Below are positions 4,111 through 33,746 of a DNA stretch of 64,000 nucleotides, piece after piece. The notes under the pieces were generated by a model. That model did no database searches. It was not told where the DNA came from and worked only from the letters and a program-made list of their open reading frames with translations. Each line of letters opens with the position of its first letter. Positions within the stretch are counted from its first letter, which is position 1. This DNA is from Micrococcus cohnii. Lineage in GTDB: Bacteria; Actinomycetota; Actinomycetes; Actinomycetales; Micrococcaceae. Both the position numbers and the translations under genes were made by a program. The stretch covers positions 558,001 through 622,000 of the forward strand of contig NZ_JACHNA010000001.1 in NCBI RefSeq assembly GCF_014205175.1, in the 5' to 3' direction.

Positions 4111-4163
4111 TCGAGGCCTGCCTGTCCGCGCAGTCCAGACCGGATGGGCGCCCAGTCGTGACC

Positions 4164-4169: not shown

Positions 4170-4231
4170 GGAGCCGATCAGCCCGGGGCGTCCTGCCGTG
4201 CTCCCCGGCCCGAGCCGACCTGGAGGCCTCC

Positions 4232-14593: not shown

Positions 14594-14690
14594 CCGGGTC
14601 GGCGCCCTGCGCTGGGCGAGGCGGTCCGTCGGGCGCGTCCGGGGTGCTCTAGGCTTCGGTGGAGCAGTGTCGTCTGGGAGGAGTGGATCG

Positions 14691-15893
14691 GTGGACGATC
14701 GTGCGGGATCGGGCCGTCTCGGTGCCGACCGAGGCGCGGACCAGCCCGAGGTCGCGGGAGCGTCGCATGAGCAGGACCGTGGCTCGGTGTCCTCAGGCAC
14801 ACCGCCCCGTCGCTCCCGGCGGCGACGCTGGCCGTGGGTGGTCGGGGCGATCGCCGTCGTGCTCGTTCTCGCTCTGGTCGCGGGCGTGCTCTACCTCAGC
14901 TCCGTGGCCCGCAGCTTCGACGACAACCGGACCACCGTCGACGCGCAGACTCAGCAGCGTGAGGCGGGCGACCCCGTGAACATCCTGCTGTTGGGCTCCG
15001 ACTCCCGCGCCGACGACGACCGCGAGGAGGGAAGCGAGCGCAAGGACACCATGATGCTCGTCCACATCCCGGCCGACGGCAGCGGCGTCTACGTCATCTC
15101 CCTGCTGCGCGATCTGTACGTGGACATTCCCGGTCACGGCCGGGACAAGCTCAACGCGGCCAGTGCCGAGGGCGGGTATCCGCTGCTGATCGACACCGTC
15201 GAGCAGATGTTCGACATCCCCGTGCATCACCTCGTCGAGATGGATTTCCAGGGCTTCCGCTCGGTGACCAGCGCGCTGGGCGGCGTGAGCGTGTGCAACC
15301 CGACGGCGTTCTCATCCGGGCAGAAGAACCCCAGCTACTTCCCGCGCGGCCAGATCCTGCTGCAGGACACCGCCGCCCTGCGCTACGTCCGCGAACGCCA
15401 TGCCTTCGGCGACGGTGATCTCAGTCGCGTCGAGAACCAGCAGCGCGTCGTCGAGAGCGCTCTGGGACGGTTCCTCAGCGTGGACGTGCTCGCGAACCCG
15501 GGGCGCACCAACGACGTCGTCTCGACCTTCTCTCGGCACCTGACGGTCGACGAAGGCCTGGACTCCCAGATCGTCGGACAGGTGGGCTGGCGCCTGCGGG
15601 ATCTGGACAAAGGCGACTTGGAGATGCTCACCGTCCCCTCGGGCGACGCGTTCAAGGACGCCCGCGGCCAGTCGGTCGTGGGCCAGGACGAGCAGCTCAT
15701 GCGGCAGCTGCGCGCGGCACTGGCCGACGATGACCTCGGCCGCTATGTCGAGGCCCGGGAGAAGGAAGAAGCCCAGGCCAAGAAGGAACGGCAGCAACGG
15801 CGGGCAGCTCAGGCCGAATCCGAGCCGACGAGCCAGGCCGAGGCGTCCGGCGCTGCGAAGCCCGAGCCGGCGGTGGACGAGCCGTGCGGCTGA
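14691..15893 (+). CDS. LCP (LytR-CpsA-Psr) family glycopolymer ligase, head of the glycopolymer locus
   Basis: A 400-aa LCP protein: ~50 charged cytoplasmic residues, a transmembrane helix (WVVGAIAVVLVLALVAGVLYL, about residues 53-73, here split by definition), and an extracellular LCP domain with NILLLGSDSR, KDTMMLVHIP, LLRDLYVDIPG, KLNAASAEGG, MDFQGFRSVTSALGGV and RYVRERHAFGDGDLSRVENQQR. It ends in a Glu/Lys/Ala-rich tail (AREKEEAQAKKERQQRR onward). The GTG at 14691 is preferred because GGGAGGAG lies 8 nt upstream. It overlaps the next glycosyltransferase by 10 nt. By position it is the best candidate for attaching this locus's polymer to peptidoglycan. Confidence 0.92.
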   Translation: MDDRAGSGRLGADRGADQPEVAGASHEQDRGSVSSGTPPRRSRRRRWPWVVGAIAVVLVLALVAGVLYLSSVARSFDDNRTTVDAQTQQREAGDPVNILLLGSDSRADDDREEGSERKDTMMLVHIPADGSGVYVISLLRDLYVDIPGHGRDKLNAASAEGGYPLLIDTVEQMFDIPVHHLVEMDFQGFRSVTSALGGVSVCNPTAFSSGQKNPSYFPRGQILLQDTAALRYVRERHAFGDGDLSRVENQQRVVESALGRFLSVDVLANPGRTNDVVSTFSRHLTVDEGLDSQIVGQVGWRLRDLDKGDLEMLTVPSGDAFKDARGQSVVGQDEQLMRQLRAALADDDLGRYVEAREKEEAQAKKERQQRRAAQAESEPTSQAEASGAAKPEPAVDEPCG

Positions 15894-17191
15894 CCGGCTC
15901 GGGTCCGCGCACGCTGAACGCCGGCGGCACCGCGGGTCGTAGCGCAGCCGAACGCGCTGCGGGCCGCGCACCCCGGCTGTGCCTGCTCATCCACTCCTAT
16001 GCCCCGGAGACCACGCCGCCGCAGCGGCGCTGGGACGCGTTCGTGCGCGCCTTCGTCGAGGCCGGGTGGAACGTCGACGTCATCGCGCCGACCGTGCCCG
16101 GCCGCGAGGACGGCCGCACCGGCACGGGCGCCCACGGCGAACGCATCGTGCGGACCCCGGCGCCGCGGTCCGGCGCCGGCGGCCGCAACTCCCGCTTCCT
16201 CGCCTCGGCCGTGCACGCCGTGCTGTGTCTGCCGGCGGCGCTGACGGTGCCGCGTCCGGACGTCGTGGTGGCGACGTTGCCGGCGTTGCCGATGGTCGTG
16301 CCCGCTCGAGTGCTGCGTCTGCTGTGGCGGCGTCCGCTGGTGCTGGAGATGCGAGACGCCTGGCCCGATCTCGCGCGCGAGGCCGAGGTCGGCGCCGGAC
16401 CGCTCGGCGCGGTGATGGACCGGCTCGTCACCGGCGCGCAGCGCAGCGCCGAGACGGTCGTGACTGTCACCGCCGGATTCGGAAAGCGCCTGGCGGCCCG
16501 AGGTGTCGACGTGCCGGTGCACGTGCCGAACGGCATCGCCGTCACGGCGGCGGCCCCGGTGACGCGACGGCAGCGCGAGGCCGGCGACGGCCTGCACGTG
16601 CTGTACCTGGGCAACCACGGCGAGAGCCAAGGACTCGAGGTGCTCGTGGAGGCCGCCGCGCTGCTTCGAGACCAGGCGCAGCCCTCGGATCCGCCGGTGA
16701 CCGTCCGGCTCGTGGGAGACGGGACCCGCCGTGAGGCGCTCGTCGCGCTCAACCGTCGATTGGGTGAGCCCGCGCAGCTGCTGCCCGCGGTCACGGGAGC
16801 CCAGGTGCGCGGCCAGTACGCGTGGGCCGACACCTGCCTGGTCATCCTGCGCGACGACTGGCCCAGCTTCGACTGGACGGTGCCCTCAAAGACCTACGAG
16901 CTGCTGGCGATGGACCAGCACATCACACCCGTGGTGCGCGGCGAGGCGGCCGAGGTCGTGCAGCAGGCGACCGGCGCGCAGCCGATCCCGGCGCGGGCCC
17001 AGGCCCTCGCCGACCATCTGCGCGCACTCGCGGCGGACCCGGAGTCCACCCGAACCTGCGGCCGTGGCCGGAAGTGGGTGAACCGGCACGCCGACCTGCA
17101 CGTGCTCGGCACGCGCATGGTGGAGACGGTCAGCGCCGCCGTCGAGCGCGGACGCCGCCCACGACGGAGGCGAGTCGGTCGGCGACGGTGA
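15884..17191 (+). CDS. GT4-like glycosyltransferase
   Basis: A 435-aa GT-B fold glycosyltransferase. After ~25 variable residues it has an N-terminal Rossmann domain (LCLLIHSYAPETTPPQRRW, VDVIAPTVPG, RPDVVVATLPALPMVVPA), a linker with VPNGI, and a C-terminal domain with VLYLGNHGESQGLEVLVEAAAL, VRLVGDG and VPSKTYELLAMDQHITPVV. This pattern matches WbuB/WcaI-type transferases that use UDP-sugar donors. The acceptor is unknown. The GTG start lies inside the LCP gene. The C-terminus is Arg-rich, and its last 62 bp overlap the 3' end of the convergent hydrolase gene. Confidence 0.88.
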   Translation: MRLTGSGPRTLNAGGTAGRSAAERAAGRAPRLCLLIHSYAPETTPPQRRWDAFVRAFVEAGWNVDVIAPTVPGREDGRTGTGAHGERIVRTPAPRSGAGGRNSRFLASAVHAVLCLPAALTVPRPDVVVATLPALPMVVPARVLRLLWRRPLVLEMRDAWPDLAREAEVGAGPLGAVMDRLVTGAQRSAETVVTVTAGFGKRLAARGVDVPVHVPNGIAVTAAAPVTRRQREAGDGLHVLYLGNHGESQGLEVLVEAAALLRDQAQPSDPPVTVRLVGDGTRREALVALNRRLGEPAQLLPAVTGAQVRGQYAWADTCLVILRDDWPSFDWTVPSKTYELLAMDQHITPVVRGEAAEVVQQATGAQPIPARAQALADHLRALAADPESTRTCGRGRKWVNRHADLHVLGTRMVETVSAAVERGRRPRRRRVGRRR

Positions 17192-18059
17192 CCGGCTCGG
17201 GGCGCGCGAAACCGGCCGCGGCGATGGCCCGGGCCGGACGCAGCGACAGGTCCGCGAGCGCGCTGAGGATCTCCCGGACGGTGTCAGAGGGGATCGCGAC
17301 GTGTCCCGGACCGTTGTCGTCCGTGCGGACATACAGGCGGCGTTCACCACGCGCCAGCTGCAGGAACGGCGTGAACTGGTGGTTGAAGAAGCGCTGATCC
17401 GCGCGGTTCTGGTAGATCAGCACGTCGTTGGTGAACGCTCCGGTTCCCGGCTCCACCGGTCGGCGCCGCACGAATCGCTCGATCACCGCGGTCCGCTGCG
17501 CCTCGGTCTGCGCCGACGGGTGCGCCACGTCCAGATACCGGTCCAGGCCGGCGGCGGGGGAGGCCTGCATGTCCAGGCGCGGGTTCACGGCGAGCACCAG
17601 CGCGTCCGGCAGGTGAGGGGCGTAGCGGATCGCGGAGTATCCACCGCCGGAGCTGCCGAACAGCACGGTGCGCACACCGCCCAGGCAGCGGGCCGCGTGG
17701 TGCAGCACGGGGCCGAGCTGCTCGGGCAGCGGGCCGGTGAGGTCATCGCCCAGGTACCAGCCGAGGTCGAGGTCACCCCGAGCGGTCGCGGGGTCGCTGA
17801 CGGCGATCAGGTTGACGCCGCAGTCTTCCGCGAGTCGGTTCCCCTGGAAGGCGGGCAGCAGCCGCACCCGCGAGGACAGTGAGGCGTTGAACACGATCAG
17901 GGTGACCGGGGCGCCCCGGTCCTCGATCAGCAGGTCGACGACGGACTCGCCGACCGGGACACTGTGCAGTCCGCGCTGCGGGCGGACCGAGACGAATTCC
18001 TGCGCGGAGGCGTAGCGCGTCTCGGCGGACCAGCGGGAGAGTCGGCGGGGGCGTTGCAT
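17130..18059 (-). CDS. Alpha/beta-hydrolase-like protein in the glycopolymer locus
   Basis: A 309-aa protein with an alpha/beta-hydrolase layout: VTLIVFNASLSSR and FQGNRLAEDCGVNLIAVSDP strands, then the nucleophile elbow TVLFGSSGGGYSAIRYAPHLP (GxSxG-like), then LVLAVNPRLDMQ. A late DNGPGHVAIP could supply the catalytic His. No signal peptide is seen, so it is cytoplasmic. Similar proteins occur beside glycosyltransferase genes in Gram-positive surface-polysaccharide clusters, but substrate is unknown; an O-acyl esterase or acyltransferase acting on the polymer is only a guess. The start at 18059 sits 6 nt after a -10-like TAACCT. The 3' end overlaps the convergent glycosyltransferase gene by 62 bp. 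Confidence 0.72.
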   Translation of the reverse strand: MQRPRRLSRWSAETRYASAQEFVSVRPQRGLHSVPVGESVVDLLIEDRGAPVTLIVFNASLSSRVRLLPAFQGNRLAEDCGVNLIAVSDPATARGDLDLGWYLGDDLTGPLPEQLGPVLHHAARCLGGVRTVLFGSSGGGYSAIRYAPHLPDALVLAVNPRLDMQASPAAGLDRYLDVAHPSAQTEAQRTAVIERFVRRRPVEPGTGAFTNDVLIYQNRADQRFFNHQFTPFLQLARGERRLYVRTDDNGPGHVAIPSDTVREILSALADLSLRPARAIAAAGFARPEPVTVADRLASVVGGVRARRRR

Positions 18060-18065
18060 GCGACA

Positions 18066-18071
18066 AGGTTA
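18066..18071 (-). promoter_or_regulatory. -10 box of a leaderless promoter for the hydrolase gene
   Basis: TAACCT on the minus strand, 6 nt before the ATG at 18059. Confidence 0.5.
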
Positions 18072-18151
18072 CCGAGTGGGCGCTGCGGTGCGGAGCAGGA
18101 CTCCACGAGGCGGCACCGGCCTGCCGCAGCGGATGCGCAGACGCGCGCTGT

Positions 18152-18157
18152 TAGTCT
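18152..18157 (+). promoter_or_regulatory. Possible -10 box for the 261-aa protein and downstream genes
   Basis: TAGTCT about 95 nt upstream of the ATG at 18253, in the divergent gap. Confidence 0.35.
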
Positions 18158-18252
18158 GGGCCGCAGCCCGCGCCGGGGTGTGTCTCGGTGGCGACCTCCG
18201 CGTCGTCGGGCGCAGAGTCATCACGCACAGACTGAGGGGCAGGAATTCCGGC

Positions 18253-19038
18253 ATGGCGCGCACGTCGATTCAGAAGGTGCTCAGGCGCTCCGCACAAACG
18301 ATCCCGCCGGACACGCGCCGGGTGCTGCGTCGCAAGGGCGGAGCGGTCCTGCGCCGCATGCCCACGCCCGTCGCACAGGAGATCCGGGACCTGTTCGGAG
18401 TGAAGTGGGGCCAGCAGAAGAACACGCGGGCCGCCGGGCGGGCGACCGACGCCCTCGGCCTGGCGACCGCCGAGAAGCAACGCCCCCGTCCCGCCGCCTC
18501 CCCGACCGTGACCGGACGCGGCGCGGCGGCCGTCGGCCCTGACCCCAAGGCGAGCGAGCGCCTGGAACGCGCCCTGGGTCTGGCCGATGTCTCCCGCGGC
18601 GCCACAGGGCAGCGGTCGATCGGCGGGATCCTCGCGCCGGACGTGCGCGGGCGTCTCGAGGAGGCCGGGCATCGGGTCGTCCCGTTCGTGCCGGGGACCT
18701 CGACGGCCCTCGCCCAGCGCGTCGAGTCGGTCGTGGTCGACCTGGAGGGATTCCGCGGAGTCTGGGCCGGTGCCCTCGACGCCACCGGCGTCTCCCTGTA
18801 CCGCGAACTCGACGCCGCTCTGAAGGCGGCCTCCGAGCGCGGCGTCACCTGCTGGCTGCTCGTCCGAGGCCCGCGAGCCCACCGCATCGGCGCGCTCGCG
18901 CTCATGCAGGCCCCGCACGTGCTCCCGCTGCGCGCGGGCGAAGACCGCGAACCCATGCACTTCACCGAGGACCCCGGGGACGCCCCGTACGGCCTCGCCG
19001 ACGTCCTTTCCGCCAGCGAGGAGGCCTACCGTGGCTGA
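18253..19038 (+). CDS. Unrecognised 261-aa protein of the glycopolymer locus
   Basis: I do not recognise this family. The first ~60 residues are strongly basic (KVLRRSAQTIPP, TRRVLRRKGGAVLRRM) and could form a membrane-surface or nucleic-acid-binding helix. An Ala/Pro/Arg-rich linker follows. Residues ~115-225 look like an alternating alpha/beta domain (RVESVVVDLEGFRGVWAGAL, RGVTCWLLVRGPRAHR), reminiscent of the N-terminal half of a GT-B fold but with no catalytic motif. There is no signal peptide or clear transmembrane helix. The ATG at 18253 follows AGGGGCAGGA. The stop overlaps the start of the 771-aa glycosyltransferase by 8 nt, so the two products are probably made together and may act as a complex. 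Confidence 0.6.
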   Translation: MARTSIQKVLRRSAQTIPPDTRRVLRRKGGAVLRRMPTPVAQEIRDLFGVKWGQQKNTRAAGRATDALGLATAEKQRPRPAASPTVTGRGAAAVGPDPKASERLERALGLADVSRGATGQRSIGGILAPDVRGRLEEAGHRVVPFVPGTSTALAQRVESVVVDLEGFRGVWAGALDATGVSLYRELDAALKAASERGVTCWLLVRGPRAHRIGALALMQAPHVLPLRAGEDREPMHFTEDPGDAPYGLADVLSASEEAYRG

Positions 19039-21346
19039 GCACCCGACCCCTGAGACCGCCGAGATCCCGGCAGCCGCCCGCGTGCGCGTGCTGTTGTACG
19101 GCGACGTCGACCTGAACGTCATGGACGGTTCGGCGATCTGGCTGCCCTCGATGGCCGAGACCCTCACGCGCGCCGGTGCCGAGGTGCACGTGCAGCTCAA
19201 GGCGGAGGAGCGCCGTGATCTGCTGACCGCGCCGCTGCGCGCGCTTGACGGCGTCACCGTGCTCGAGGCCCGCCCTCGCGCCGGACAGAACTCGATGGAA
19301 CCGGCGCGGGCCGCCACCGTCCTGGCCGAGGCGGATGAGCGGGAGCGCTACGACGTCGTGCTCGTGCGCGGCATCCACATGTGCAGTGAGCTGGCCGAGC
19401 GTCATGCCTTTCCGGGGCGCCTGTGGTCCTACGTCACCGAGTTCGGCTATGTCGCCGGTGAGTTCAGCTCCTCACGGCAGGAGACGATCGGCGCGATCGC
19501 CGCGGCCAGCCGTCTGATGCTGGCGCAGACCCCGCAGGCCCGCGCCGTGCTCGAGGCCATGGTCCCGGCCGCGGCGGGCCGTACTGAGATCCTCTCGCCG
19601 ATGGTCCCGGACGAGGTCCGACCCGTCGAGCGGTCGGCCGAACACGCCGCCGGACCGCTGCGGATGATCTACACGGGCAAGTTCGCCCACGACTGGCACA
19701 CCGACAAGATGCCCGCGATCCTCGAGCATCTCACCGAGGCCGGTGTCGAGGCGAGGCTGACGATGGTCGGCGACAAGGTCCACCGCGAGCCGAAGCGCAG
19801 CGGCTGGGCCTCGCGCATGCGTACGCTGCTCAACGCGGACATGCCCGGGTTCGAGTGGACGGGTGCGCTCAGCCGCGTCGAGTCCATGGACCGGATGGCT
19901 CACTCGGACGTGTCCCTGGGCTGGCGCGCGCCACGCCTGGATCTGTCCCTGGAGATCTCGACGAAGGTGCTCGAGAGCTGCGCGCTGGGTGTGCCGCCGC
20001 TGGTGAATCGCACCACGATCCACGAAGAGCTGCTGGGCACGGACTACCCGCTGTTCATCGACGCGCTCCGGGACGACGCCGAGGCCATCGCCCGGCGGCT
20101 GCAGGGCGTGCAAGAACGTCTTCCCGAGCTCTCGGCCCACGTGCTCGCGGCCGCCGAACCGTATCGCATGACCGCACGCGCTGAAGCCCTGCGCGGGTAC
20201 TTCGCCCGACTCGGGCTGCTCGATCAGGCTCCCGCCGCCGGAACGCTCAGCGCGGACGCGGGGCAGCATGCCTCGCCGCAGGCGGGCGAGAGCGGCGCCG
20301 CGCAGAGCGCCGACGCGCAGAACGCGGAGGCCGTGAGCGTGTCGCCGCGTCGGACCCGCGTCGTCGTGGCCGGACACGACCTGAAGTTCGCCGGCGAGCT
20401 CGTCGACATGCTGCGAGACGACCCGTCCGTCGAGCTGCGCCTGGACCACTGGTCGACCCTGCACAAGCACGACGAGTCCGCCTCGACGAAGCTGATCGAC
20501 TGGGCCGACGTCGTGGTGTGCGAGTGGGCCGGTCCCAACGCGGTCTGGTACTCGAAGCACAAGCGTCCCGGCCAGCGGCTGGTGGTGCGCCTGCACATGT
20601 TCGAGCTGCGAGGCGGCTGGCTCGAGAACATCGACACCGACGCCGTGGACGCCCTCGTCACCGTCTCAGGTCTCTACCGAGACCTGACGCGTGAGCACAT
20701 GGCGATCGACCCGGCGAAGGTCACGGTGATCCCCAACGCCGTCTCGGTGGCCGACCTCGATCGTCCCGGCCTGCCGGACCGCCGGTACCGGCTCGGCCTG
20801 GTCGGCATCGTTCCGCTGCGTAAGCGGCTGGACCGGGCCGTCGATCTGCTCGAGGCCCTGCGTCGGCACGATGACCGCTTCACCCTGCACATCCGCGGCC
20901 GCATGCCGTGGGAGTACGCACATGAGTGGCGCAAACCGCTGCAGCGCGAGGGATACCTCGATCTGTTCGCTCGCATCGGCGGATCCGATCTGCGCGAGGT
21001 CGTGGCCTTCGAGCCCTTCGGGGCGGACATGGGCACGTGGCTGACGAAGATCGGCTGGGTGCTCTCCCCGTCCACCACCGAGAGCTTCCACCTGGCCCCC
21101 GCCGAGGGCATGGTCTCCGGTGCCGTGCCGCTGGTCTGGCAGCGGCCGGGCGCGGTCGGCGTGTTCGGCGAGGACTTCGTCGTGCCGGACACGGAGGCCG
21201 CAGCCGAGCGCGTGCTGGCGGCCGTGGCCGATGACGAGCAGTATGGCCGTCTCAGCGATCTGAGCCGTCAGCGCGTGCAGGGCTACGACGAACGCGCGGT
21301 CGCCGCGCTGTGGCACGCCGCACTGTTCCCTGCCGCCGCGTCCTGA
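19031..21346 (+). CDS. Two-module glycosyltransferase, 771 aa
   Basis: Two GT-B units are joined in one chain. Module 1 (about residues 15-395) has VRVLLYGDVDLNVMDGSAIW, MIYTGKFAHDWHTDKM, TMVGDK and a donor-site segment DLSLEISTKVLESCALGVPPLVNR. An Ala/Gln/Ser-rich linker (about 400-438) follows. Module 2 (about 440-771) has VVVAGHDLKFAGELVDML, WADVVVCEWAGPNAVWYSKH, VTVIPNAVSV, GLVGIVPLRKRLDRAVDLL and SPSTTESFHLAPAEGMVSGAVPLVW. Module 2 is clearly paralogous to the C-terminal half of the protein at 28681-30534. Two active modules could add two sugars of a repeat unit, as in bifunctional polysaccharide synthases. Both modules look intact, but donors are unknown. Confidence 0.85.
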   Translation: MAEHPTPETAEIPAAARVRVLLYGDVDLNVMDGSAIWLPSMAETLTRAGAEVHVQLKAEERRDLLTAPLRALDGVTVLEARPRAGQNSMEPARAATVLAEADERERYDVVLVRGIHMCSELAERHAFPGRLWSYVTEFGYVAGEFSSSRQETIGAIAAASRLMLAQTPQARAVLEAMVPAAAGRTEILSPMVPDEVRPVERSAEHAAGPLRMIYTGKFAHDWHTDKMPAILEHLTEAGVEARLTMVGDKVHREPKRSGWASRMRTLLNADMPGFEWTGALSRVESMDRMAHSDVSLGWRAPRLDLSLEISTKVLESCALGVPPLVNRTTIHEELLGTDYPLFIDALRDDAEAIARRLQGVQERLPELSAHVLAAAEPYRMTARAEALRGYFARLGLLDQAPAAGTLSADAGQHASPQAGESGAAQSADAQNAEAVSVSPRRTRVVVAGHDLKFAGELVDMLRDDPSVELRLDHWSTLHKHDESASTKLIDWADVVVCEWAGPNAVWYSKHKRPGQRLVVRLHMFELRGGWLENIDTDAVDALVTVSGLYRDLTREHMAIDPAKVTVIPNAVSVADLDRPGLPDRRYRLGLVGIVPLRKRLDRAVDLLEALRRHDDRFTLHIRGRMPWEYAHEWRKPLQREGYLDLFARIGGSDLREVVAFEPFGADMGTWLTKIGWVLSPSTTESFHLAPAEGMVSGAVPLVWQRPGAVGVFGEDFVVPDTEAAAERVLAAVADDEQYGRLSDLSRQRVQGYDERAVAALWHAALFPAAAS

Positions 21347-21372
21347 AGCCGTCGCGGCCGCAGACCTATACT
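21343..21372 (+). promoter_or_regulatory. Promoter of wecC
   Basis: CTGAAG (21343-21348), an 18-nt spacer and TATACT (21367-21372). The -10 is one of the best in the window. Confidence 0.6.
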
Positions 21373-21452
21373 GGGCCAGACGCCCGGCGTCGAGGCGGGA
21401 CGAGTCGCTCCCGCACCGACGCGCACTCCCGAACACCCCGAAAGGGTCCCCC

Positions 21453-22706
21453 GTGACTGAGATCTCCACCGTGGCCGTCATCGGCCTCGGCTACATCGGC
21501 CTCCCGACCGCCGCGATCCTCGCGGAGAACGGCGTGCGCGTGCACGGCGTCGACGTCTCCGACCGCACCGTCGAGGCCGTGAACGCCGGGCGCGTGCCGT
21601 TCGTCGAGCCGGACCTGGCCGACTTCGTCTCCCGCGCCGTGGACAAGGGCCTGCTCAGCGCCTCCACGCAGACGCCGCCGGCGGACGCGTACATCGTGGC
21701 GGTGCCGACCCCGTTTAAGGACGGGCATCAGCCCGATCTGAGCTACATCGAGGCCGCCGCACGCGGACTCGCCCCGCAGCTGCGCGGAGACGAGCTCGTC
21801 ATCCTTGAGTCCACCTCGCCGCCGGGGGCGACCGAGCACATGGCCGAGGTCATCTACGCCGAGCGTCCCGAGCTGCGGGAGCCCGGCGTCGACGTCGCGC
21901 ACTGTCCTGAGCGCGTGCTGCCCGGCCGGGTCATGGTGGAGCTGGTCACCAACGACCGCATCGTTGGCGGCTCCACCCCGGAGGCTGCTCAGCGCGCCGA
22001 GAGCCTGTACCGCACCTTCTGCAAGGGCGAGATTCTGCTGACCGACTGCCGCACCGCGGAGATGGCCAAGCTCGTGGAGAACTCGTTCCGTGACGTGAAC
22101 ATCGCCTTCGCCAACGAGCTGTCGGTCATCTGCTCTGAGCTCGGCATCGATGTGTGGGAGCTCATCGAGCTGGCGAACCACCATCCGCGTGTGAACATCC
22201 TCCAGCCCGGCCCCGGCGTGGGCGGCCACTGCATCGCGGTGGACCCGTGGTTCATCGTGGACGCGGCTCCGAGCACGGCGCGACTGATCCGTTCGGCGCG
22301 CGAGATCAACGACGCGAAGCCGCAGTGGGTCATCGACCAGGTCAAGGCCGCCGCCTTCGACGTGCAGCAGCAGACCGGCCGCGCACCGCGCGTCGCCGCC
22401 CTGGGCCTGGCGTTCAAGCCGAACATCGACGATCTGCGCGAGTCCCCGGCCCTGAACATCGTGGACAGCATGGCCGAGCAGTTCACCGGCTCGCAGATCC
22501 TGGTGGCCGAGCCGCATGTGGACGAGCTCCCGCCGCGCCTGCAGGGTCGCGAGAACATCACGTTCCTCGACGCGTCCGAGGCCGTGGAGCAGGCCGATAT
22601 CGTCCTGCTGCTCGTGGACCACGATGCCTTCGGCCAGCTCGGCGCTGCCGCCGCGGGCAAGCGCGTGATCGACACGCGCGGCCAGTGGCGCGCCCAGCAG
22701 GGCTGA
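21453..22706 (+). CDS. wecC: UDP-N-acetyl-D-mannosamine dehydrogenase
   Basis: A 417-aa UDP-sugar 6-dehydrogenase. It has the NAD-binding VIGLGYIGLPTAAILAENG, CPERVLPGRVMVELVTNDRIVGG, AEMAKLVENSFRDVNIAFANEL, and the catalytic Cys in GPGVGGHCIAVDPWF. The GRV-MVEL and PERVLPG pattern and the partner wecB gene favour UDP-ManNAc (to UDP-ManNAcA) over UDP-glucose as substrate. The GTG start follows AAAGGG. It has its own promoter, and a hairpin separates it from the convergent 1315-aa gene. Known biology: ManNAcA is a component of Micrococcus luteus teichuronic acid. Confidence 0.93.
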   Translation: MTEISTVAVIGLGYIGLPTAAILAENGVRVHGVDVSDRTVEAVNAGRVPFVEPDLADFVSRAVDKGLLSASTQTPPADAYIVAVPTPFKDGHQPDLSYIEAAARGLAPQLRGDELVILESTSPPGATEHMAEVIYAERPELREPGVDVAHCPERVLPGRVMVELVTNDRIVGGSTPEAAQRAESLYRTFCKGEILLTDCRTAEMAKLVENSFRDVNIAFANELSVICSELGIDVWELIELANHHPRVNILQPGPGVGGHCIAVDPWFIVDAAPSTARLIRSAREINDAKPQWVIDQVKAAAFDVQQQTGRAPRVAALGLAFKPNIDDLRESPALNIVDSMAEQFTGSQILVAEPHVDELPPRLQGRENITFLDASEAVEQADIVLLLVDHDAFGQLGAAAAGKRVIDTRGQWRAQQG

Positions 22707-22725
22707 GCCCCGCCTGATCCGACGT

Positions 22726-22760
22726 CGGCGCGTCCTTCTGGTCCACGGGAGGGCGCGCCG
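22726..22760. terminator. Possible bidirectional terminator between wecC and the 1315-aa gene
   Basis: CGGCGCG-TCC (22726-22735) can pair with GGA-GGG-CGCGCCG (22748-22760), with a 3-nt bulge and a 12-nt loop, between convergent genes. Confidence 0.45.
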
Positions 22761-22796
22761 TCGGCGTCCGGGACGAGGCGTGCCCGGGCGGTCGCG

Positions 22797-26744: not shown

Positions 26745-26754
26745 GGCACGGCTC

Positions 26755-26777
26755 ACTCTATCCGGGCGCCCTAGAGT
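26755..26777. promoter_or_regulatory. Overlapping divergent promoters with mirror-image -10 boxes
   Basis: ACTCTA (26755-26760, which is TAGAGT on the minus strand) and TAGAGT (26772-26777, plus strand) form a perfect 6-bp inverted repeat with an 11-nt spacer. Each is the likely -10 for one of the two divergent glycosyltransferase genes, so the two RNA polymerase footprints overlap. Confidence 0.55.
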
Positions 26778-26880
26778 GGAGTGGTCGAGGAGCCCGGATC
26801 GGCCCCCGATCCACCGGGGTCCCCGTCGCATGAGGGGCGCCCGCGACCGCACAGCACCGCCGAGCCGCAGGAGACGACTG

Positions 26881-28668
26881 ATGCCCCGCCGTCCGCTGAC
26901 CTCCGTCCCGTGGGGGCGTCACGCGAGCCTGACCGCCCAGACCGTGGCCGAGCACGCGGTGGACGACCCCCTGCTGCTGGTGCTCCAGGGATCCCGTCGA
27001 CTCCCCGCCGCCGTGCGCACGCCGGCCGCGCGCCTGATCGGTGCGCTGGGCCGCGGGATGGCCACGCTTGCCCCGGCCCGAGGAGTGGGGTCGGTCGTCA
27101 GCGCGGTGAGCGAGCACATGCTCGGCCGCACCCCGCGGGCGCTCGAGCGGCTCGACGGCCCGGCCGCGGGCGGTCTGGTGGGTCGCGCCGACGCCTCCGT
27201 GCTGCTCGGCGATGACGCGCAGGCGCAGCGGCTGCTCGAGCGGGTCCCCGAGGATCGACGCGGGGCGCCGTGGCACGCCGTGGCCGCGCGCCTGGCGCTG
27301 CACCGCGGTGACCTCGACGGCGCCGTCGCGTACGCGGGCCGGCATCGGGTCAACCGGGCCTTGCGCCGGCGCATGGCCGGCGAACGGGAGGCCTTCACGG
27401 GGCACCGTCCGAGCCTGCCGGCCACGCCCGACTATGCGCCGCTGCCGGGACGTGTGTTGCACGTGCTGACCAACTCCCTGCCGCACACCTCCAGCGGCTA
27501 CGCCCAACGCAGCCATTCGACCCTCACCGCCCTCGACGCGGTGGGCGTCCAGGTGCGGGCCGTGACGCGGCCGGGCTACCCGACGGTGGTCGGGGTGCCG
27601 TGGGCCAGCGCCGAGGACCGGATCGGCCAAATCGTCTACCGGCGTCTGCTCCCGCACCGACTGGGCCAGGGCACAGCCGCGAGGATCGACCAGCACGCTC
27701 GCCTGCTGGCCGCCGAGGTCGAGCGTTTCCGGCCCGAGGCGCTGCACACCACCACCCACTTCGTGAACGCCGTCGCGGTGCGCGCCGTGGCCAAGGCCTA
27801 CGGCATCCCCTGGGTGTACGAGGTGCGCGGCCAGCTCGCGGACACCTGGGCGTCCAAGCGCACGGCCTCCGCCCTGTCCTCCCAACGGTACGCCGCGTTC
27901 GTGGCCGCCGAGGCCGAGGCCGCCTGCAGCGCCGACGCCGTCGTGACCCTCGGGGCGACCATGGCGCGCCGCCTGGTCGAGGCGGGAGTGTCCGAGGACC
28001 GGATCACCGTGTGCCCCAACGCGGTGGGCGAAGCCTTCCTCGACGAGCCCCCGGCCCGGGTTCACGCGCGAGCCCGTCTCGGTCTGGACCCCGAGCACGT
28101 CTACGTGGGCACCGTGTCCTCGATCGTCGGATACGAGGGGCTTGATGACCTGCTGCGCGCCGTCGCGCTGATCGCCCCCCGGTTCCCCCGGCTGCGCGTG
28201 TCGATCGCCGGTGACGGCGTCAGCCTGCCCGGGCTGCGCGCGCTCGCCGAGGAGCTGGGCATCGCGCACCTGTGCCGTTTCCCCGGCCGGATCGCCCGGC
28301 CCGAGGCCGTGTGGGAGCAGGCCAGCCTCGACGTGTTCGTCGTGCCGCGCAAGGACCTGCCCGTCACCCGGGCCGTGACCCCGATGAAGTCGATCGAGGC
28401 CTCGGCCTTCGCACGCCCCGTCGTCGCCTCCGATCTGCCGGCCCTGGCGGAGCTGGTCGAGGACGGCGTGACGGGCCGGCTCGCGCCCGCGCAGGACCCC
28501 CGGGCGCTGGCCGAGGTGCTCGCCGAGCTGGTGGCCGACCCGGAGCTGCGGGCCCGTCTGGGCGAGGGGGGGCGGGCCTGGGCCCTGTCCACCCGGACGT
28601 GGGCCGCCAACGCGCGGCGGTATGCGCAGGTCTACCGAGAGCTGGGGGTCCGCCTGCCCCGGACCTGA
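26881..28668 (+). CDS. GT4 glycosyltransferase with helical N-terminal extension, 595 aa
   Basis: Residues ~1-190 form an Ala/Leu/Arg-rich helical region that resembles tetratricopeptide-like repeats (LLGDDAQAQRLLERVPEDRRG, RLALHRGDLDGAVAYAGRH). Residues ~195-590 are a GT4 transferase: VLHVLTNSLPHTSSGYAQRSH with the Gly-rich donor loop, PWVYEVRGQL, VTLGATMARRLVEAGV, VCPNAV, VGTVSSIVGYEGLDDLL, VSIAGDG, and the EX7E region KSIEASAFARPVVASDLPAL. AGGAGACGACTG precedes the ATG at 26881. It is divergent from the 1315-aa gene and convergent with the 617-aa gene. The helical extension may dock it in a multi-enzyme complex (inference). Confidence 0.87.
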   Translation: MPRRPLTSVPWGRHASLTAQTVAEHAVDDPLLLVLQGSRRLPAAVRTPAARLIGALGRGMATLAPARGVGSVVSAVSEHMLGRTPRALERLDGPAAGGLVGRADASVLLGDDAQAQRLLERVPEDRRGAPWHAVAARLALHRGDLDGAVAYAGRHRVNRALRRRMAGEREAFTGHRPSLPATPDYAPLPGRVLHVLTNSLPHTSSGYAQRSHSTLTALDAVGVQVRAVTRPGYPTVVGVPWASAEDRIGQIVYRRLLPHRLGQGTAARIDQHARLLAAEVERFRPEALHTTTHFVNAVAVRAVAKAYGIPWVYEVRGQLADTWASKRTASALSSQRYAAFVAAEAEAACSADAVVTLGATMARRLVEAGVSEDRITVCPNAVGEAFLDEPPARVHARARLGLDPEHVYVGTVSSIVGYEGLDDLLRAVALIAPRFPRLRVSIAGDGVSLPGLRALAEELGIAHLCRFPGRIARPEAVWEQASLDVFVVPRKDLPVTRAVTPMKSIEASAFARPVVASDLPALAELVEDGVTGRLAPAQDPRALAEVLAELVADPELRARLGEGGRAWALSTRTWAANARRYAQVYRELGVRLPRT

Positions 28669-28680
28669 GCCGGGCGCCGT

Positions 28681-30534
28681 TCAGCGTGTGCCGAGCACCG
28701 CGTCGGCCAGGCGTGGCAGCACGACGCGGTCGGCCAGGTGCTCGCGCACGAATGCGGCGGCGTCGGCGGCTCGCTCGCGGCGGACGTCCTCGGTGGCGGT
28801 GGCCTCCCGGATGAGCGCGGTCAGCTGATCGACGTCGGCGGCGAGCCAGTGCCGCGGATAGATGAGGTCCGCCCCGGGCCAGGCCAGCGCGAGGGGCACG
28901 GCGCCGGCGAGGGCCGCGTCCGGCAGGGTGAAGTGGAACGACTCGAAGTCCGAGACGGACAGAGCCACGCCCACCCGCTCGTACCACGCGGTCATGTCGG
29001 GGCCGTGCGGGTCGAAGGCGACCGCCTCGGAGAGCGGAGCGTGCTCGCAGCGGGAGAACTGCCGCGCGTAGTAGGCGCGTTCTGCTTCCCGCCCGGACAT
29101 CCAGCCGGACTCGTCCGGGCGGTGCCCGCGCACCCGCAGCCGCCAGGGCGTCTCGGGATCGGCCTGGCTCAGGGCTGCCGCGACGTCCAGGGCTCGGTGC
29201 AGGCCCTTGCGCGCCGGCAGCATGCCGACCAGGCCGAGCGTGTGTCGCCGGGTCGTCGAGAGCTCCTGACGGCGCGGGGAAGGCCCGGGGAGCTGGACGG
29301 CGTTGGGAACCACCAGGGTCCGCGCCGCGGGCACACCATGGTCGCGCACGAGCGCGGCTCGCACGTGCCCGGCCACCGCGACGACCGCGTCGAGGCGTGC
29401 ATGCCGCACCCGCGCGGGGAAATCCGTGGTGACCTCTTGCAGATGGGCGCGTGCGGTGACCCGGACGCGGCGCGGGGCGTGGCGGGAGTACCAGACGGCG
29501 TTGCCGAGCATCCACTCGCAGAGCACGACGTCGGCCCAACCGGCCAGAGCTCGGGAGGCGTCCACGTCGTGGCGGGCATGGCCGTGCCACCGGTCGATCC
29601 GCACCTCGTGGCCGGCCCCGCGCAGGTGGTCGACGAGTCCTGCAGCGAACTTCAGGTCGTGCCCGGCGACCACGACGCGGCGCGGTTCCGCGATCACGCG
29701 GGCCGAGGGCCGTTCGGGGGTCGGGAGCGGCGCCGTGGCCGAGCCGCTGGTCAGGGCGTCGTCGAGCTGCGCCAGTCGCCCGGATCGGCCGGCATCGCGC
29801 AGCGAGTCAGCCGTCGGCCAATGCTGGTCGCCGCGGTGCAGCGGCCAGGCAGAAGGATCGAGTTCGCCGAGCGCAGCCACGTCGAGGACGGGCCGGTGCG
29901 CCGCCTGCGCCACACGGTGCCAGGCACCGTGCTGCCCGGTCTCGCGCGGGCCCACAAGCACGACTCGCTCGGCGAGCCCGGCCAGGGCGGCACGATGTCC
30001 CGGCGCGGGCTCGTGGACCCATCGCACACCGCGGCGGCGCAGGTCTGCCGGCGGCGTCGGGACGGCGCCCTGCGTGACCACGACCGTGCGCGACGCCGAC
30101 CTGGAGCGCCGGCCGGAGGAGTCCGTCCCGGAGGCGTTCGGCCCCCAGGAGGCGGCACCGTGGCGCGCGTCGAGCAGCTCGCTGAGCCGCACGGACCCTG
30201 CCTGGCCCGGGCCGCCGGGCGGCAGCACGAGCAGCAGCACGTCCTGGGCGCCGATCGACGCATCGGCGCTCAGCCGGTCCGGCAGACCGAGCCAGCGCAG
30301 CAGGGACGGAGCCGGAGGCAGCGGCGTCGGCAGAAGGCCGCGGTCGATCGGCGCGTCGGGCTCGGCGGGCCAGAGCCGGGCCGGCGGATCAGGCAGGCCG
30401 CGTGCGTGGCGGGTGAGGGACTCGCCGAGGTCGAGACGGCGGCGCAGGGCGCGGCGCGCATCACCGGTGATGCGTGTGCCACGGGTCCTTGCCGCGCGGG
30501 CCAGGCGTCGGACCGAGGAGCTCGGCTCACTCAC
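28681..30534 (-). CDS. Glycosyltransferase, 617 aa, paralogous to module 2 of the 771-aa protein
   Basis: The N-terminus is Arg-rich (VRRLARAARTRGTRITG). Residues ~80-270 form an alpha/beta region with no motif I can name (VLLLVLPPGG, TVVVTQGAVP, VVLVGPRETG). Residues ~283-617 are a GT-B-like module: VVVAGHDLKFAAGLVDHL, WADVVLCEWMLGNAVWYSRH, LVVPNAVQLPG, LGLVGMLPARKGLHRALDV and VSDFESFHFTLPDAALAGAVPLA. They line up with module 2 of the 771-aa protein along their whole length. The GTG start at 30534 overlaps the stop of the ABC ATPase gene as GTGA, so it is co-translated with the exporter. Confidence 0.82.
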   Translation of the reverse strand: MSEPSSSVRRLARAARTRGTRITGDARRALRRRLDLGESLTRHARGLPDPPARLWPAEPDAPIDRGLLPTPLPPAPSLLRWLGLPDRLSADASIGAQDVLLLVLPPGGPGQAGSVRLSELLDARHGAASWGPNASGTDSSGRRSRSASRTVVVTQGAVPTPPADLRRRGVRWVHEPAPGHRAALAGLAERVVLVGPRETGQHGAWHRVAQAAHRPVLDVAALGELDPSAWPLHRGDQHWPTADSLRDAGRSGRLAQLDDALTSGSATAPLPTPERPSARVIAEPRRVVVAGHDLKFAAGLVDHLRGAGHEVRIDRWHGHARHDVDASRALAGWADVVLCEWMLGNAVWYSRHAPRRVRVTARAHLQEVTTDFPARVRHARLDAVVAVAGHVRAALVRDHGVPAARTLVVPNAVQLPGPSPRRQELSTTRRHTLGLVGMLPARKGLHRALDVAAALSQADPETPWRLRVRGHRPDESGWMSGREAERAYYARQFSRCEHAPLSEAVAFDPHGPDMTAWYERVGVALSVSDFESFHFTLPDAALAGAVPLALAWPGADLIYPRHWLAADVDQLTALIREATATEDVRRERAADAAAFVREHLADRVVLPRLADAVLGTR

Positions 30535-31496
30535 GGCGCCGTGTGGCCGGTCGGCTCGTGGCCGTCGGCCCAGTCGATTCGCGTCAGGGCGGTGGCCTCG
30601 AGGCATTTCTGCCGGTGGATGCGCGCCTGCTTGAGCCGGTCGCGGCCCAGCATGATCGTGTACTTGCGGTACGCGTCCACGACCTCGTCCGGATCCCCGT
30701 CCATCGTCAGCTCGCCACGCTCGATCCACACCACGCGTGTGCACATTTCCCGGATCGTGCCGAGGGAGTGACTGACCAGGAACACGCAGCCGGCCTGCTC
30801 GCGCAGGTGGTCGATGCGGCGGCGGGTGCGTTCGCGGAACTGGGCGTCGCCGGTGTTCAGCGCCTCGTCGATCACGAGGATGTCCGGGTCCACCGAGGTG
30901 GCGATCGCGAACTGCAGGCGGGCGGCCATGCCGGAGGAGTACGCCTTCAGCGGCAAGGAGAGCGCGGTGTCGTCGAGGCCGGAGAGCTCCACGATCTGGT
31001 CGCGTTTCTTCGCGGCCGTCGCGGCGGACATGCCCATCGCCAGGCAGCCGAGCAGGATGTTGTCCTCGCCGGAGACCTGCCGGACCAGGGCGGCGTTGAC
31101 CCCGAGCATGATGGGCGTGCTCGTGGCGTACACCGACCCCGCCGTCGGCTGCATCTGCCCGGTGATCAGCTTCATGAGCGTCGACTTGCCCGAGCCGTTC
31201 GTGCCGATCACGCCGACGGACTCGCCGCGCCGGACGAGCAGGGACAGCGGCCTGAGTGCCTCGACCGTGCTGGTCGTCATGCCCGAGGCCCGGCGCCGGC
31301 GCGCCCCGGCGCCCTGGCCGCGCACGAGGGACTCCGCGGCGCGCACGGTGTAGGTCATCCCGACCTCGTCCAGCACCACCGCGCTCTGCCCGTCGGGCAC
31401 GCTGATGTGCTCGGTCGGGCGGGCGGGAGCCGTCCGCCGTCGTGTGCCGCGGGCCGCGGTCGCAGGCGCGTCCTTCTGCTGGGGCATGTCAGTCAC
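30531..31496 (-). CDS. ABC transporter ATPase for surface-polysaccharide export (TagH/Wzt-like)
   Basis: A 321-aa nucleotide-binding subunit. An Ala/Arg/Thr-rich N-terminus (about 30 residues) and a basic insert before the Walker A distinguish it. Walker A is IGTNGSGKSTLMK, the Q-loop region is MLGVNAALVRQVSGEDN, the signature is KAYSSGMAARLQFA, and Walker B is ILVIDEALNTGD, followed by the switch His in FLVSHSLGTI. This is the ABC-2 family that exports teichoic acids, O-antigens and capsules. It lacks the long C-terminal carbohydrate-binding domain of Wzt. The GTG at 31496 has GGAGAGGAG upstream and overlaps the permease stop (GTGA). Confidence 0.92.
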   Translation of the reverse strand: MTDMPQQKDAPATAARGTRRRTAPARPTEHISVPDGQSAVVLDEVGMTYTVRAAESLVRGQGAGARRRRASGMTTSTVEALRPLSLLVRRGESVGVIGTNGSGKSTLMKLITGQMQPTAGSVYATSTPIMLGVNAALVRQVSGEDNILLGCLAMGMSAATAAKKRDQIVELSGLDDTALSLPLKAYSSGMAARLQFAIATSVDPDILVIDEALNTGDAQFRERTRRRIDHLREQAGCVFLVSHSLGTIREMCTRVVWIERGELTMDGDPDEVVDAYRKYTIMLGRDRLKQARIHRQKCLEATALTRIDWADGHEPTGHTAP

Positions 31497-32383
31497 CGCT
31501 CCTCTCCGTAGCTCTGCTCGGCCCGCCAGAACACGACGGTGCCCACCACGAGCAGCACGGTCGTCCAGGCGAGAATCACGAGCCAACGCTCGAGCGGCGC
31601 GACGGTGCCGTAGAGCATCGACTGGCGCGCGATGTCCAGCACGCAGTACATCGGGTTCAGGTGCATCATCGTCACCAGAGCCGGGTGGTTCTCGAAGCGT
31701 TCGATGCTGAAGAACACCGCCGAGAGGTACAGCCAGATGCGCGTGCCGAAGTTCACGAGGTTCGACACATCCGCCCAGCGGGCCACGAGCCGGGCCAGCA
31801 GCAGCGAGAGCCCGACGTTGAAGAGCGTCTGGAGCAGCAGCAGTGGGATCAGCAGCAGCCACAGGAACGTGATGTGCTCCAGCGGCGGGATCACCAGCAC
31901 GAGGACGACCATCGTCGCCAGCGTGGGCAGGAAGACCAGCAGCTCGCGCATGTTCGTCGCGAGCACCAGCGTCGCTCGAGGGAAGCGGAAGGCCCGCACG
32001 ATCGCCATGTTCGAGGAGATCGCCCGGGAGCCGGCGCCGATCGCCTGCGAGGTGTAACGGAACATGAACACGCCGACGATCAGATACGCGACGAAGTTCT
32101 CGATGCCACGGCCGGTGCCCAGCAGCAGGCCGAACACGAAGTAGTAGGTGGCCCCGTTCAGGATCGGGTTCAGCACCATCCACAGTCGGCCCAGCGAGTT
32201 GACGGAGTTGCCGCTGGCGATGCGGGAGCGGGAGTCGAAGAGGATGAACGAGCGGTAGTCCCACAGCGACCTCAGATACGCGCCGAGCGGAGGACGGCCT
32301 CCGACGCGGGCGAGGCCGTCGGCCGACACCCGGTGGTGGCGGACGGGCGCTCGCGTGGCGGTGCGGGCTTCGGAGCCAGTCAT
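31493..32383 (-). CDS. ABC-2 permease for surface-polysaccharide export (TagG/Wzm-like)
   Basis: A 296-aa permease with about six hydrophobic helices in its last 240 residues. It has the family entry SLWDYRSFILFDSRSRIASGNS, LGRLWMVLNPILNGATYYFVFG, VFMFRYTSQAI, FRFPRATLVLATNMRELL and NLVNFGTRIWLYLSAVFFSIERF. With the ATPase it would move a lipid-linked polymer across the membrane. This makes the locus ABC-transporter dependent; no Wzx/Wzy pair is visible. The ATG at 32383 follows AAGGTGAG. It is first in a three-gene minus-strand operon (permease-ATPase-glycosyltransferase), divergent from wecB. Confidence 0.92.
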   Translation of the reverse strand: MTGSEARTATRAPVRHHRVSADGLARVGGRPPLGAYLRSLWDYRSFILFDSRSRIASGNSVNSLGRLWMVLNPILNGATYYFVFGLLLGTGRGIENFVAYLIVGVFMFRYTSQAIGAGSRAISSNMAIVRAFRFPRATLVLATNMRELLVFLPTLATMVVLVLVIPPLEHITFLWLLLIPLLLLQTLFNVGLSLLLARLVARWADVSNLVNFGTRIWLYLSAVFFSIERFENHPALVTMMHLNPMYCVLDIARQSMLYGTVAPLERWLVILAWTTVLLVVGTVVFWRAEQSYGEER

Positions 32384-32442
32384 CGAACTCTCACCTTCCG
32401 GCCGGACGTGCGGGTCTGGCCCCGCGGGAGCTGTAGTGGCCG

Positions 32443-32448
32443 ATTCTA
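32443..32448 (-). promoter_or_regulatory. -10 box of the exporter operon
   Basis: TAGAAT on the minus strand, about 60 nt upstream of the permease ATG. No clear -35 was seen. Confidence 0.5.
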
Positions 32449-32467
32449 CCCGCGCGGGGCCCTGTCG

Positions 32468-32473
32468 TAGACT
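32468..32473 (+). promoter_or_regulatory. -10 box of wecB
   Basis: TAGACT about 106 nt upstream of the wecB GTG, in the same divergent gap as the exporter promoter. Confidence 0.45.
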
Positions 32474-32579
32474 CGCACACGTCGACGTCCCGCCCGCCGG
32501 CGGGGCCGACAGCCGGGCGAGCGCGGACCGTCTCTGCACCATGTGGGCCCGGGAGCACGCCGACCCTCAGGAGAGCATC

Positions 32580-33746
32580 GTGAAGAAGATCATGCCGATC
32601 TACGGCACCCGCCCCGAGGCGATCAAGGTCGCACCGATCGTCAAGGCGCTGCAGGCCGATGAACGCTTCGACTGCGTCGTCGCCGTGACCGGGCAGCACC
32701 GCGAGATGCTCGACCAGGTCAACCAGCTGTTCGGCATTGAGCCGGACCACGACCTGGACATCATCCAGCCCCGCCAGACCCTGAACTCGATCTTCGCGAA
32801 GATCCTCGACGGCATGGACCGCATCCTGTCCGAGGAGAAGCCGGACGCCGTCGTCGTCCAGGGCGACACGACCACGTCGACGGCGGGCGCGATCGCCGCG
32901 TTCAACCTTCAGATCCCCGTCGTCCACGCCGAGGCTGGACTGCGCAGCTTCGACATCATGTCGCCGTTCCCCGAGGAGGCCAACCGCAAGATCACCTCCC
33001 AGATCGCGGCCCTGCATTTGGCGCCGACGCGCGTGTCCAAGGCGAACCTGCTGCGCGAGGCCGTCGTGGAGTCCGACGTGTACGTCACCGGCAACACCGT
33101 GATCGACGCCTTGCTCGAGGTCGTCGACAAGAAGATCCCGTTCACGGACCCGCAGCTGGCCGAGGTGGCCGCCACGGTCGAGGACGGCACGAAGGTCGTG
33201 CTGGTCACCACCCACCGCCGGGAGAACCAGGGTGAGGCCATGCGCGGGGTCGGCCGCGCCCTCGCCCGGCTGGCCGCGGGCAACGAGGACGTGCTCTTCG
33301 TGCTGCCGGCGCACAAGAACCCGGTCGTCCGAGAAGCCGTTCTGCCGTACCTGGAGGGCCTGCAGAACGTGGTGGTCACCGAGCCGCTGGCCTACGGCGA
33401 GTTCACGCACATGCTCTCGCTGGCGAACGTCGTGCTGACCGACTCCGGGGGCGTTCAGGAGGAGGCGCCGGGCCTGGGCAAGCCGGTGCTCGTGATGCGC
33501 GAGAACACCGAGCGCCCCGAGGCCGTTGAGGCCGGCACCGTGCGCCTGATCGGCACGGCCGAGGATGTCGTGGTCGAGCAGGTCCAGACCCTGCTGCACG
33601 ACGAGGCGGCTTACACGGCGATGGCCAATGCTGTGAACCCCTACGGCGACGGCAAGGCGGCCGAGCGCACCGTCTCGGGCATCGCGCAGCTGCTCGGGGT
33701 CGGCGAGCGCATGCCGGCCTTCGACGACGGTCTCGGTCGGGACTGA
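32580..33746 (+). CDS. wecB: UDP-N-acetylglucosamine 2-epimerase (non-hydrolysing)
   Basis: A 388-aa MnaA/WecB epimerase that interconverts UDP-GlcNAc and UDP-ManNAc. Motifs are GTRPEAIKVAPIVKAL, VTGQHREMLDQV, VVQGDTTTSTAGAIAAF, HAEAGLRS, PFPEEANRKITSQIA, VLVTTHRRENQGEAM and LTDSGGVQEEAPGLGKPVLVMRENTERPEA. The GTG start follows AGGAGAGC. With wecC this gives UDP-ManNAcA, the uronic-acid donor of ManNAcA-containing wall polymers. wecB and wecC flank the glycosyltransferase genes about 10 kb apart instead of forming an operon. Confidence 0.96.
   Translation: MKKIMPIYGTRPEAIKVAPIVKALQADERFDCVVAVTGQHREMLDQVNQLFGIEPDHDLDIIQPRQTLNSIFAKILDGMDRILSEEKPDAVVVQGDTTTSTAGAIAAFNLQIPVVHAEAGLRSFDIMSPFPEEANRKITSQIAALHLAPTRVSKANLLREAVVESDVYVTGNTVIDALLEVVDKKIPFTDPQLAEVAATVEDGTKVVLVTTHRRENQGEAMRGVGRALARLAAGNEDVLFVLPAHKNPVVREAVLPYLEGLQNVVVTEPLAYGEFTHMLSLANVVLTDSGGVQEEAPGLGKPVLVMRENTERPEAVEAGTVRLIGTAEDVVVEQVQTLLHDEAAYTAMANAVNPYGDGKAAERTVSGIAQLLGVGERMPAFDDGLGRD

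Follow-up and report, generated by a model that had tools for sequence, protein, structure and literature searches.

A stretch of 64,000 nucleotides from Micrococcus cohnii (positions 558,001 to 622,000 of contig NZ_JACHNA010000001.1; the whole stretch is called the window, and coordinates count from its first letter) carries, between mutM and ftsY (window 14594-35205), a set of genes that is, judged from homology and gene order, very probably a teichuronic acid locus. Taken together, these genes are explained best, and with good confidence, as the wall teichuronic acid locus of Micrococcus, present in the window strain as a local variant. The window genome (G000; 2.28 Mb, single contig) was compared with ten other Micrococcus genomes, all 11 being searched, and the counts below include it unless stated otherwise. 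One of the ten, G124, was taken to be M. luteus NCTC 2665 (NC_012803), and all arguments about M. luteus that run through this genome rest on that presumed identity.

Genes between mutM and ftsY

Both enzymes for the supply of UDP-N-acetylmannosaminuronic acid (UDP-ManNAcA) scored above curated cut-offs. These are WecB, the UDP-N-acetylglucosamine (UDP-GlcNAc) 2-epimerase, at about 32541..33746 on the plus strand (TIGR00236, 451.4 bits against a cut-off of 210.15, scored on the open reading frame (ORF) from 32355), and WecC, the UDP-N-acetyl-D-mannosamine dehydrogenase, at 21453..22706 on the same strand (PRK11064 equivalog, 581.9 bits against 459; GGHCIAVDP motif). By homology, the two would convert UDP-GlcNAc to UDP-ManNAcA, and UDP-glucose would be provided by GalU (11151..12050, plus strand; TIGR01099, 330.4 bits, cut-off 326.8), which is a conserved neighbour and probably has a housekeeping role.

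An ABC-2 exporter permease of the TarG/Wzm type (31493..32383; PF01061 5.1e-10; TarG 6jbh 1.8e-12) and a neighbouring exporter ATPase of the TagH/Wzt type (30531..31487; TagH 7dd0 1e-46, TarH 6jbh 2.3e-44) are encoded on the minus strand. The closest solved structures to this pair were the wall teichoic acid exporters TagH/TarGH; ABC_tran was the sole Pfam domain of the ATPase above its gathering score, and the TagH model NF010066 matched it at 9.8e-49, below the cut-off. The pair is thus closest to glycopolymer exporters, as expected for ABC-dependent (TarGH/Wzm-Wzt) export, and none of the proteins in the window locus gave a Pfam match to a Wzx-type flippase or a Wzy-type polymerase. Next to mutM lies an LCP family glycopolymer ligase (14667..15893, plus strand, with a gene finder start at 14838; PF03816 9.5e-36) whose solved relatives include TagT, TagU and TagV. 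An earlier note, made from the letters of the window alone, had read wecB and wecC, the permease/ATPase pair, the LCP ligase and a nearby galU in the same way, and these readings all held.

That note had also counted five large glycosyltransferases. Glycosyltransferase domains were backed by Pfam or NCBIfam in four of them, GTa, GT771, GT595 and GT617, whereas the fifth protein (22797-26744) carries a pyruvyltransferase domain, and GTa, at 435 residues, is not unusually large. GTa (15884..17191, plus strand) is a GT4-type, WcaI-like enzyme (PF13579 3.5e-11; NF007640 3.5e-16, below cut-off) and shares 53-57% identity with the corresponding proteins of nine genomes. GT771 (19031..21346, plus strand) holds two glycosyltransferase-like halves in one protein, of which the C-terminal half matched PF13692, PF13439 and PF00534 above their gathering scores and the N-terminal half matched PF13524 below it. 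Compared with solved structures, the profile of the C half matched ones of the GT4 type (best 6n1x, 1.8e-7; TarM 0.0017); matches of the N half were weak (best E 0.025), and no useful solved relative of full-length GT771 was found. GT595 (26881..28668, plus strand) consists of an N-terminal extension and a GT4-type domain (PF00534 5.7e-25; nearest solved structures 3c4q/3c48, 6kih, 8dvz and 3okc), and GT617 (28681..30534, minus strand) of a variable N-terminal part and a domain 40% identical to the GT771 C half (PF13692 3.9e-4, below the gathering score). A relative of GT771 (about 41%) also occurs in Nocardiopsis and a few relatives (L112-L135, L137, L143, L149-L152, L161, L163, L164), where, in most of the loci, wecB-like and wecC-like genes lie close to it but are arranged differently.

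Conservation and exchange across Micrococcus

The interval between mutM and ftsY was obtained whole in the window and seven other genomes (G124, G044, G149, G014, G090, G139 and G068); for G108, G151 and G150, pieces of it were fetched. The LCP and GTa genes adjoin mutM in 10/10 genomes with that side fetched (all except G151), with one further called ORF between mutM and the LCP gene in G044, and the ftsY end carries the ABC pair and wecB in 10/10 genomes for which that end was fetched (all except G150). WecC matches were found in all 11 genomes, with 78-86% identity in the ten relatives, and the next-best WecC match in any of these genomes reached at most 37% identity (over >100 residues). 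Epimerase_2 is likewise present in 11/11, as a single gene in eight and as two in G000, G068 and G139, and every genome has a counterpart of GT595. In three Citricoccus-type genomes, from a related genus, LCP, GTa, wecC, GT595 and GT771 are found beside mutM.

The exporter and the polymerase are less constant. By wecB (90%) and FtsY (86%), G108 is the nearest of the ten relatives to the window strain, yet it shares with the window only 40 and 42% identity in the ABC proteins and 38% in the polymerase domain. In seven genomes (G124, G044, G014, G090, G139, G068 and G151) the corresponding values are 66-76% for the ABC proteins and 56-61% for the polymerase domain, and a third ABC type (45-46%) occurs in G149, with a polymerase at 45%. 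Because both components diverge in G108 and G149 while wecB and wecC stay, exporter and polymerase seem, on these identities, to have been replaced together. The same two genomes encode a protein of about 1480 residues (L074 in G108, L064 in G149) that joins GT595-like and GT617-like parts; its C-terminal domain was also seen across the family in many frames of about 1430-1550 residues, which would encode giant transferases.

The middle of the locus varies as a cassette, which in some genomes is a pyruvyltransferase unit and in others a second set of aminouronic-acid genes. In 4/8 whole loci (G124, G044, G014 and G068) a second nucleoside diphosphate (NDP)-sugar dehydrogenase gene is followed by genes of matching sizes, and family scans identified this dehydrogenase, a hexapeptide acetyltransferase and a Gfo/Idh-type dehydrogenase in G124 and a DegT-type aminotransferase in G044. 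By family assignment this second set is WbpA/B/D/E-like, as predicted for a diacetamido-uronic acid; a gene set of this kind is described for Streptomyces in the part of PMC13274773 drawn on here. The cassette aminotransferase gene of G124 (L060/L061, about 972.0-973.1 kb) contains one in-frame stop and is intact in G044 and G014. Judged from this one reference sequence, the interruption could account for the absence of such a sugar from the known M. luteus polymer. Exporter and cassette differ between species, and the polymer of the window strain is therefore probably a variant.

A wider picture, which we put forward tentatively and regard as rather doubtful as a whole, would make the mutM-ftsY interval a serotype-like wall-polymer hub, in which the UDP-ManNAcA supply is fixed, the exporter and polymerase are exchanged together and the middle cassette is swapped. 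The fused pyruvyltransferase of the window strain would then lead to a pyruvylated ManNAcA teichuronic acid, and the known M. luteus structure would be a simplified product of a type strain in which the second aminouronic-acid pathway is interrupted.

The pyruvyltransferase fusion and the accessory proteins

In the window strain, the cassette consists of a fusion protein of 1315 residues (22797..26744, minus strand) whose C-terminal half is a polysaccharide pyruvyltransferase. This half matched PF04230 (9.8e-14; 52.4 bits against a gathering score of 25.3) over profile positions 1-280 of 280, and its conserved residues are shared by 11 aligned sequences. The match to CsaB-type pyruvyltransferases is therefore nearly full-length in the domain (PF04230, TIGR03609); however, the score against the CsaB equivalog TIGR03609 (1.1e-40; 139.9 bits) stays below the cut-off of 213.1, so that the protein is not a CsaB by this model, and it differs from that type also in being fused to an unclassified half and in lying within a ManNAcA locus. 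The N-terminal half is strongly conserved among the 11 sequences. It gave no Pfam match even at E 1, nor did one of its relatives, and another relative had only a chance-level match to CoA_binding_2; no useful solved relative of the whole fusion was found. We tentatively read this half as a CgeB-like transferase; a family match was sought and did not appear, and the half was thus not accepted as an established glycosyltransferase.

Among 149 genomes drawn from the family, 16 matched the 1315-residue protein (the window genome, nine with both halves, and six with the pyruvyltransferase half only, one of these six weakly). The two halves lie at most 4.2 kb apart in 9/9 other drawn genomes that have the N half. 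Both stand inside a wecC-containing locus in G044, G090, G151 (which lies outside the draw), G060, G034 and G119, the three Citricoccus-type genomes among them; in G020, G092, G109 and G017 they belong to loci without wecB or wecC matches (35-38 kb fetched). As the halves occupy separate open frames in 10/10 other genomes examined, the fusion is seen in the window strain alone. The two frames of G109 are consecutive in one reading frame (746 and 993 residues, or 1740 if the stop is read through). In G119 it is the pyruvyltransferase half that is divided between two frames. On this gene content, the middle cassette of the window strain may add a pyruvate-bearing decoration, the most likely role of the pyruvyltransferase half being to attach a pyruvate ketal, either to the chain or to an additional side sugar.

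Two further ORFs lie where the earlier note had placed its accessory proteins of no assigned role. The first, hyp309 (17130..18059, minus strand), has no Pfam or NCBIfam match and no useful solved relative was found for it; its GSSGGG motif is one that we take to be typical of alpha/beta-hydrolases, the likeness being one of motif only. Across the order, 47/396 genomes have a match (the window genome included), in several cases within frames of 600-1500 residues; a tblastn search of the other fetched Micrococcus loci found none. At a weak guess, it may add or remove an acyl group. The second, hyp261 (18253..19038, plus strand), overlaps the start of GT771 and has no Pfam match and, as the longer ORF, no NCBIfam match. 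It stands beside GT771 in 8/8 Micrococcus loci with that stretch fetched whole and in 2/3 Citricoccus-type loci, being missing beside GT771 in G060, and in our reading of alignment A2 two distant relatives (L162, L106) begin with hydrophobic stretches. It is probably a partner of GT771, although this too is a weak guess.

Product of the locus

For the teichuronic acid of M. luteus, both the enzyme system and the structure, [-4-beta-ManNAcA-(1-6)-alpha-Glc-1-]n, have been described, and UDP-GlcNAc, UDP-ManNAcA and UDP-Glc serve as its precursors (PMC3005890, here and below in the portion available). G124, presumed to come from the species with this chemically known wall polymer, has the same site and core as the window, and both its sole Epimerase_2 gene and its sole close WecC lie inside the locus; the known ManNAcA-Glc polymer should therefore depend on it. 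The activated sugars that the published synthetase needs match the encoded enzymes, and the genus and, in G124, the chromosomal site agree. The proposal of the earlier note, that the locus makes the M. luteus-type ManNAcA-Glc polymer or a close relative by an ABC route, is supported by this site, by these sole ManNAcA genes and by the TagH/TarGH-like pair.

In the proposed pathway, a WecA-like protein would start the chain as GlcNAc-PP-lipid at the cytoplasmic face; GTa, GT771, GT595 and GT617 would assemble the linkage unit and a chain in which glucose and ManNAcA alternate; the ABC pair, of TarGH type by homology, would export it; and the LCP ligase, so assigned by family membership, would fix it to peptidoglycan via a phosphodiester. 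The earlier note saw no lipid-carrier initiator, and none was found within the locus; the window genome as a whole, however, holds a candidate. It encodes two PF00953 proteins, MraY (L092, above cut-off) and the WecA-like L091 at G000:C1:493 kb, and the latter is the likely initiator candidate.

Several findings weigh against the teichuronic acid assignment. L091 reached 102.1 bits against the WecA model TIGR02380, for which the cut-off is 326.05, and matches only the broader PF00953. GT771 is present in 9/11 genomes, G149 and G108 being without both it and hyp261, and the WbpA/B/D/E-like genes of the G124 locus have no reflection in the known polymer. GT4-type transferases are retaining and a beta-ManNAcA linkage needs an inverting enzyme, while the recognisable transferases of the locus look GT4-like. 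A GT26 enzyme of the WecG/TagA kind (PF03808) is absent from G000 and G124 and was found only in G090 (1/11), which removes this family as the source of the ManNAcA transferase in the first two; the locus suggests a transferase of a non-GT26 kind. The published model of M. luteus synthesis is transporter-free (PMC3005890), contrary to which the locus implies, by its predicted exporter, an ABC route. The published model also has two kinds of subunit, purified at 54 and 52.5 kDa (PMC3005890), whereas the conserved locus transferases of G124 have masses of 42.0, 80.4, 63.9 and 63.1 kDa, none of which fits; only a cassette transferase of G124 (56.9 kDa) comes near. A 479-residue dehydrogenase neighbour (G124:C1:614.8 kb) was considered as a synthetase candidate and set aside, its best model being an NAD(P)H-quinone dehydrogenase. 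A further difference from the published system is the pyruvyltransferase cassette of the window strain. Lastly, the second Epimerase_2 of the window genome (G000:C1:1334 kb) scored 253.2 bits, above the wecB cut-off of 210.15.

The mismatch of subunit masses, the sharply different exporter and polymerase types of close species and the extra sugar genes in G124 would all fit a locus that makes some other ManNAcA surface polymer, a capsule or secondary wall polysaccharide, with M. luteus teichuronic acid merely drawing its UDP-ManNAcA here and being assembled by genes elsewhere. We consider this unlikely, as the LCP ligase, the wall-polymer-type exporter and the transferases share one site with the UDP-ManNAcA genes in the genomes examined. 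A classical teichoic acid was rejected as the product: a TagB/TagF-type polymerase (PF04464) was found in 0/11 Micrococcus genomes, the same search giving hits in 3/14 named genomes as a control. The window genome has another surface polysaccharide locus (G000:C1:1331032-1344521; L080/L081), which contains CapE/CapF-like genes and the second Epimerase_2, together with a second PF04230 pyruvyltransferase, a DegT aminotransferase and an NDP-sugar dehydrogenase. A reading in which the ManNAcA polymer comes from this locus (G000:C1:1331-1345 kb) and some other product from the window locus would agree with the epimerase score and the presence of a dehydrogenase, yet is very improbable. The epimerase adjoins Polysacc_synt_2 and Polysacc_synt_C genes, a neighbourhood which we take to be the CapE/CapF pattern of the N-acetylfucosamine pathway, and with these neighbours it was dismissed as a rival ManNAcA source; the dehydrogenase reached 207.9 against the UDP-ManNAcA cut-off of 459 (PRK11064), and a second Epimerase_2 occurs in only 3/11 Micrococcus genomes. 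Another complete teichuronic acid locus elsewhere, which the earlier note had named as speaking against its proposal, was thus not clearly found.

Within the teichuronic acid assignment, the pyruvyltransferase half might act on the backbone itself, for example by forming a 2,3-ketal at the uronic acid, or a ketal at glucose or the terminal sugar, with no side sugar involved. We give this a serious chance, although we do not favour it. A teichuronic-like polymer of Promicromonospora with 2,3-pyruvylated glucuronic acid (GlcA) and 6-linked glucose is a precedent (PMC6801904, in the part used here), and the N half, which has no family match, is a transferase only putatively. By contrast, the pyruvyltransferase half accompanies the N half in 9/9 drawn genomes having the latter, so that the N half has some linked task; the tie is one-sided, because six further drawn genomes have the pyruvyltransferase half alone.

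Among known systems, the tua operon of Bacillus subtilis follows a flippase/polymerase route with GlcA; it shares the polymer class, a phosphate-free uronic acid wall polymer, and differs from the locus described here, which points to an ABC route and ManNAcA. Wall teichoic acid systems with TarGH/TagGH export and LCP attachment resemble it in the ABC pair, for which they are nearest among solved structures, and in LCP relatives that include TagT/U/V; they differ in their TagB/TagF-type polymerase, the chain here being built from sugars. The utr cluster of Streptomyces (PMC13274773, as far as the part used here describes it) likewise has variable loci round few core genes, and the enzymes that supply its precursors are similar to those of the WbpA/B/D/E-like cassette in other Micrococcus species; its chain, however, sits on wall teichoic acid, whereas the present locus has a wecB/wecC core and no TagB/TagF-type enzyme was found with it.

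No paper naming genes for M. luteus teichuronic acid was found; the 2010 genome paper on the Fleming strain lay beyond the search, and an earlier assignment there is possible. The locus offers a defined gene set for this polymer and predicts in which species the walls should contain pyruvate or a second aminouronic acid. In Streptomyces, antibacterial particles use polymers of this class as receptors (PMC13274773, same part), and the variable locus may therefore reflect attack by such particles.

The reading frames used are backed by third-codon-position G+C and a simple gene finder, which together place the 1315-residue protein, GT617, the ATPase, the permease, hyp309 and a major facilitator superfamily (MFS) transporter gene on the minus strand. 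Four plus-strand ORFs (22827-25826, 28738-30771, 30474-31511 and 31442-32470) belong to no family and have the wrong codon-position signal, and were therefore not counted as genes. A promoter and terminator scan gave nothing above shuffles. The MFS transporter (33800..35044; PF07690 1.7e-59) marks the edge of the locus and is kept on the ftsY side in the Micrococcus genomes compared. In other actinobacteria, smc occupies the place between mutM and ftsY; no SMC was present among the proteins scanned in that interval here, where the polymer locus sits. A second LCP protein is encoded at window 3761-5326, 9 kb upstream of the first, and a third at G000:C1:151.9 kb.

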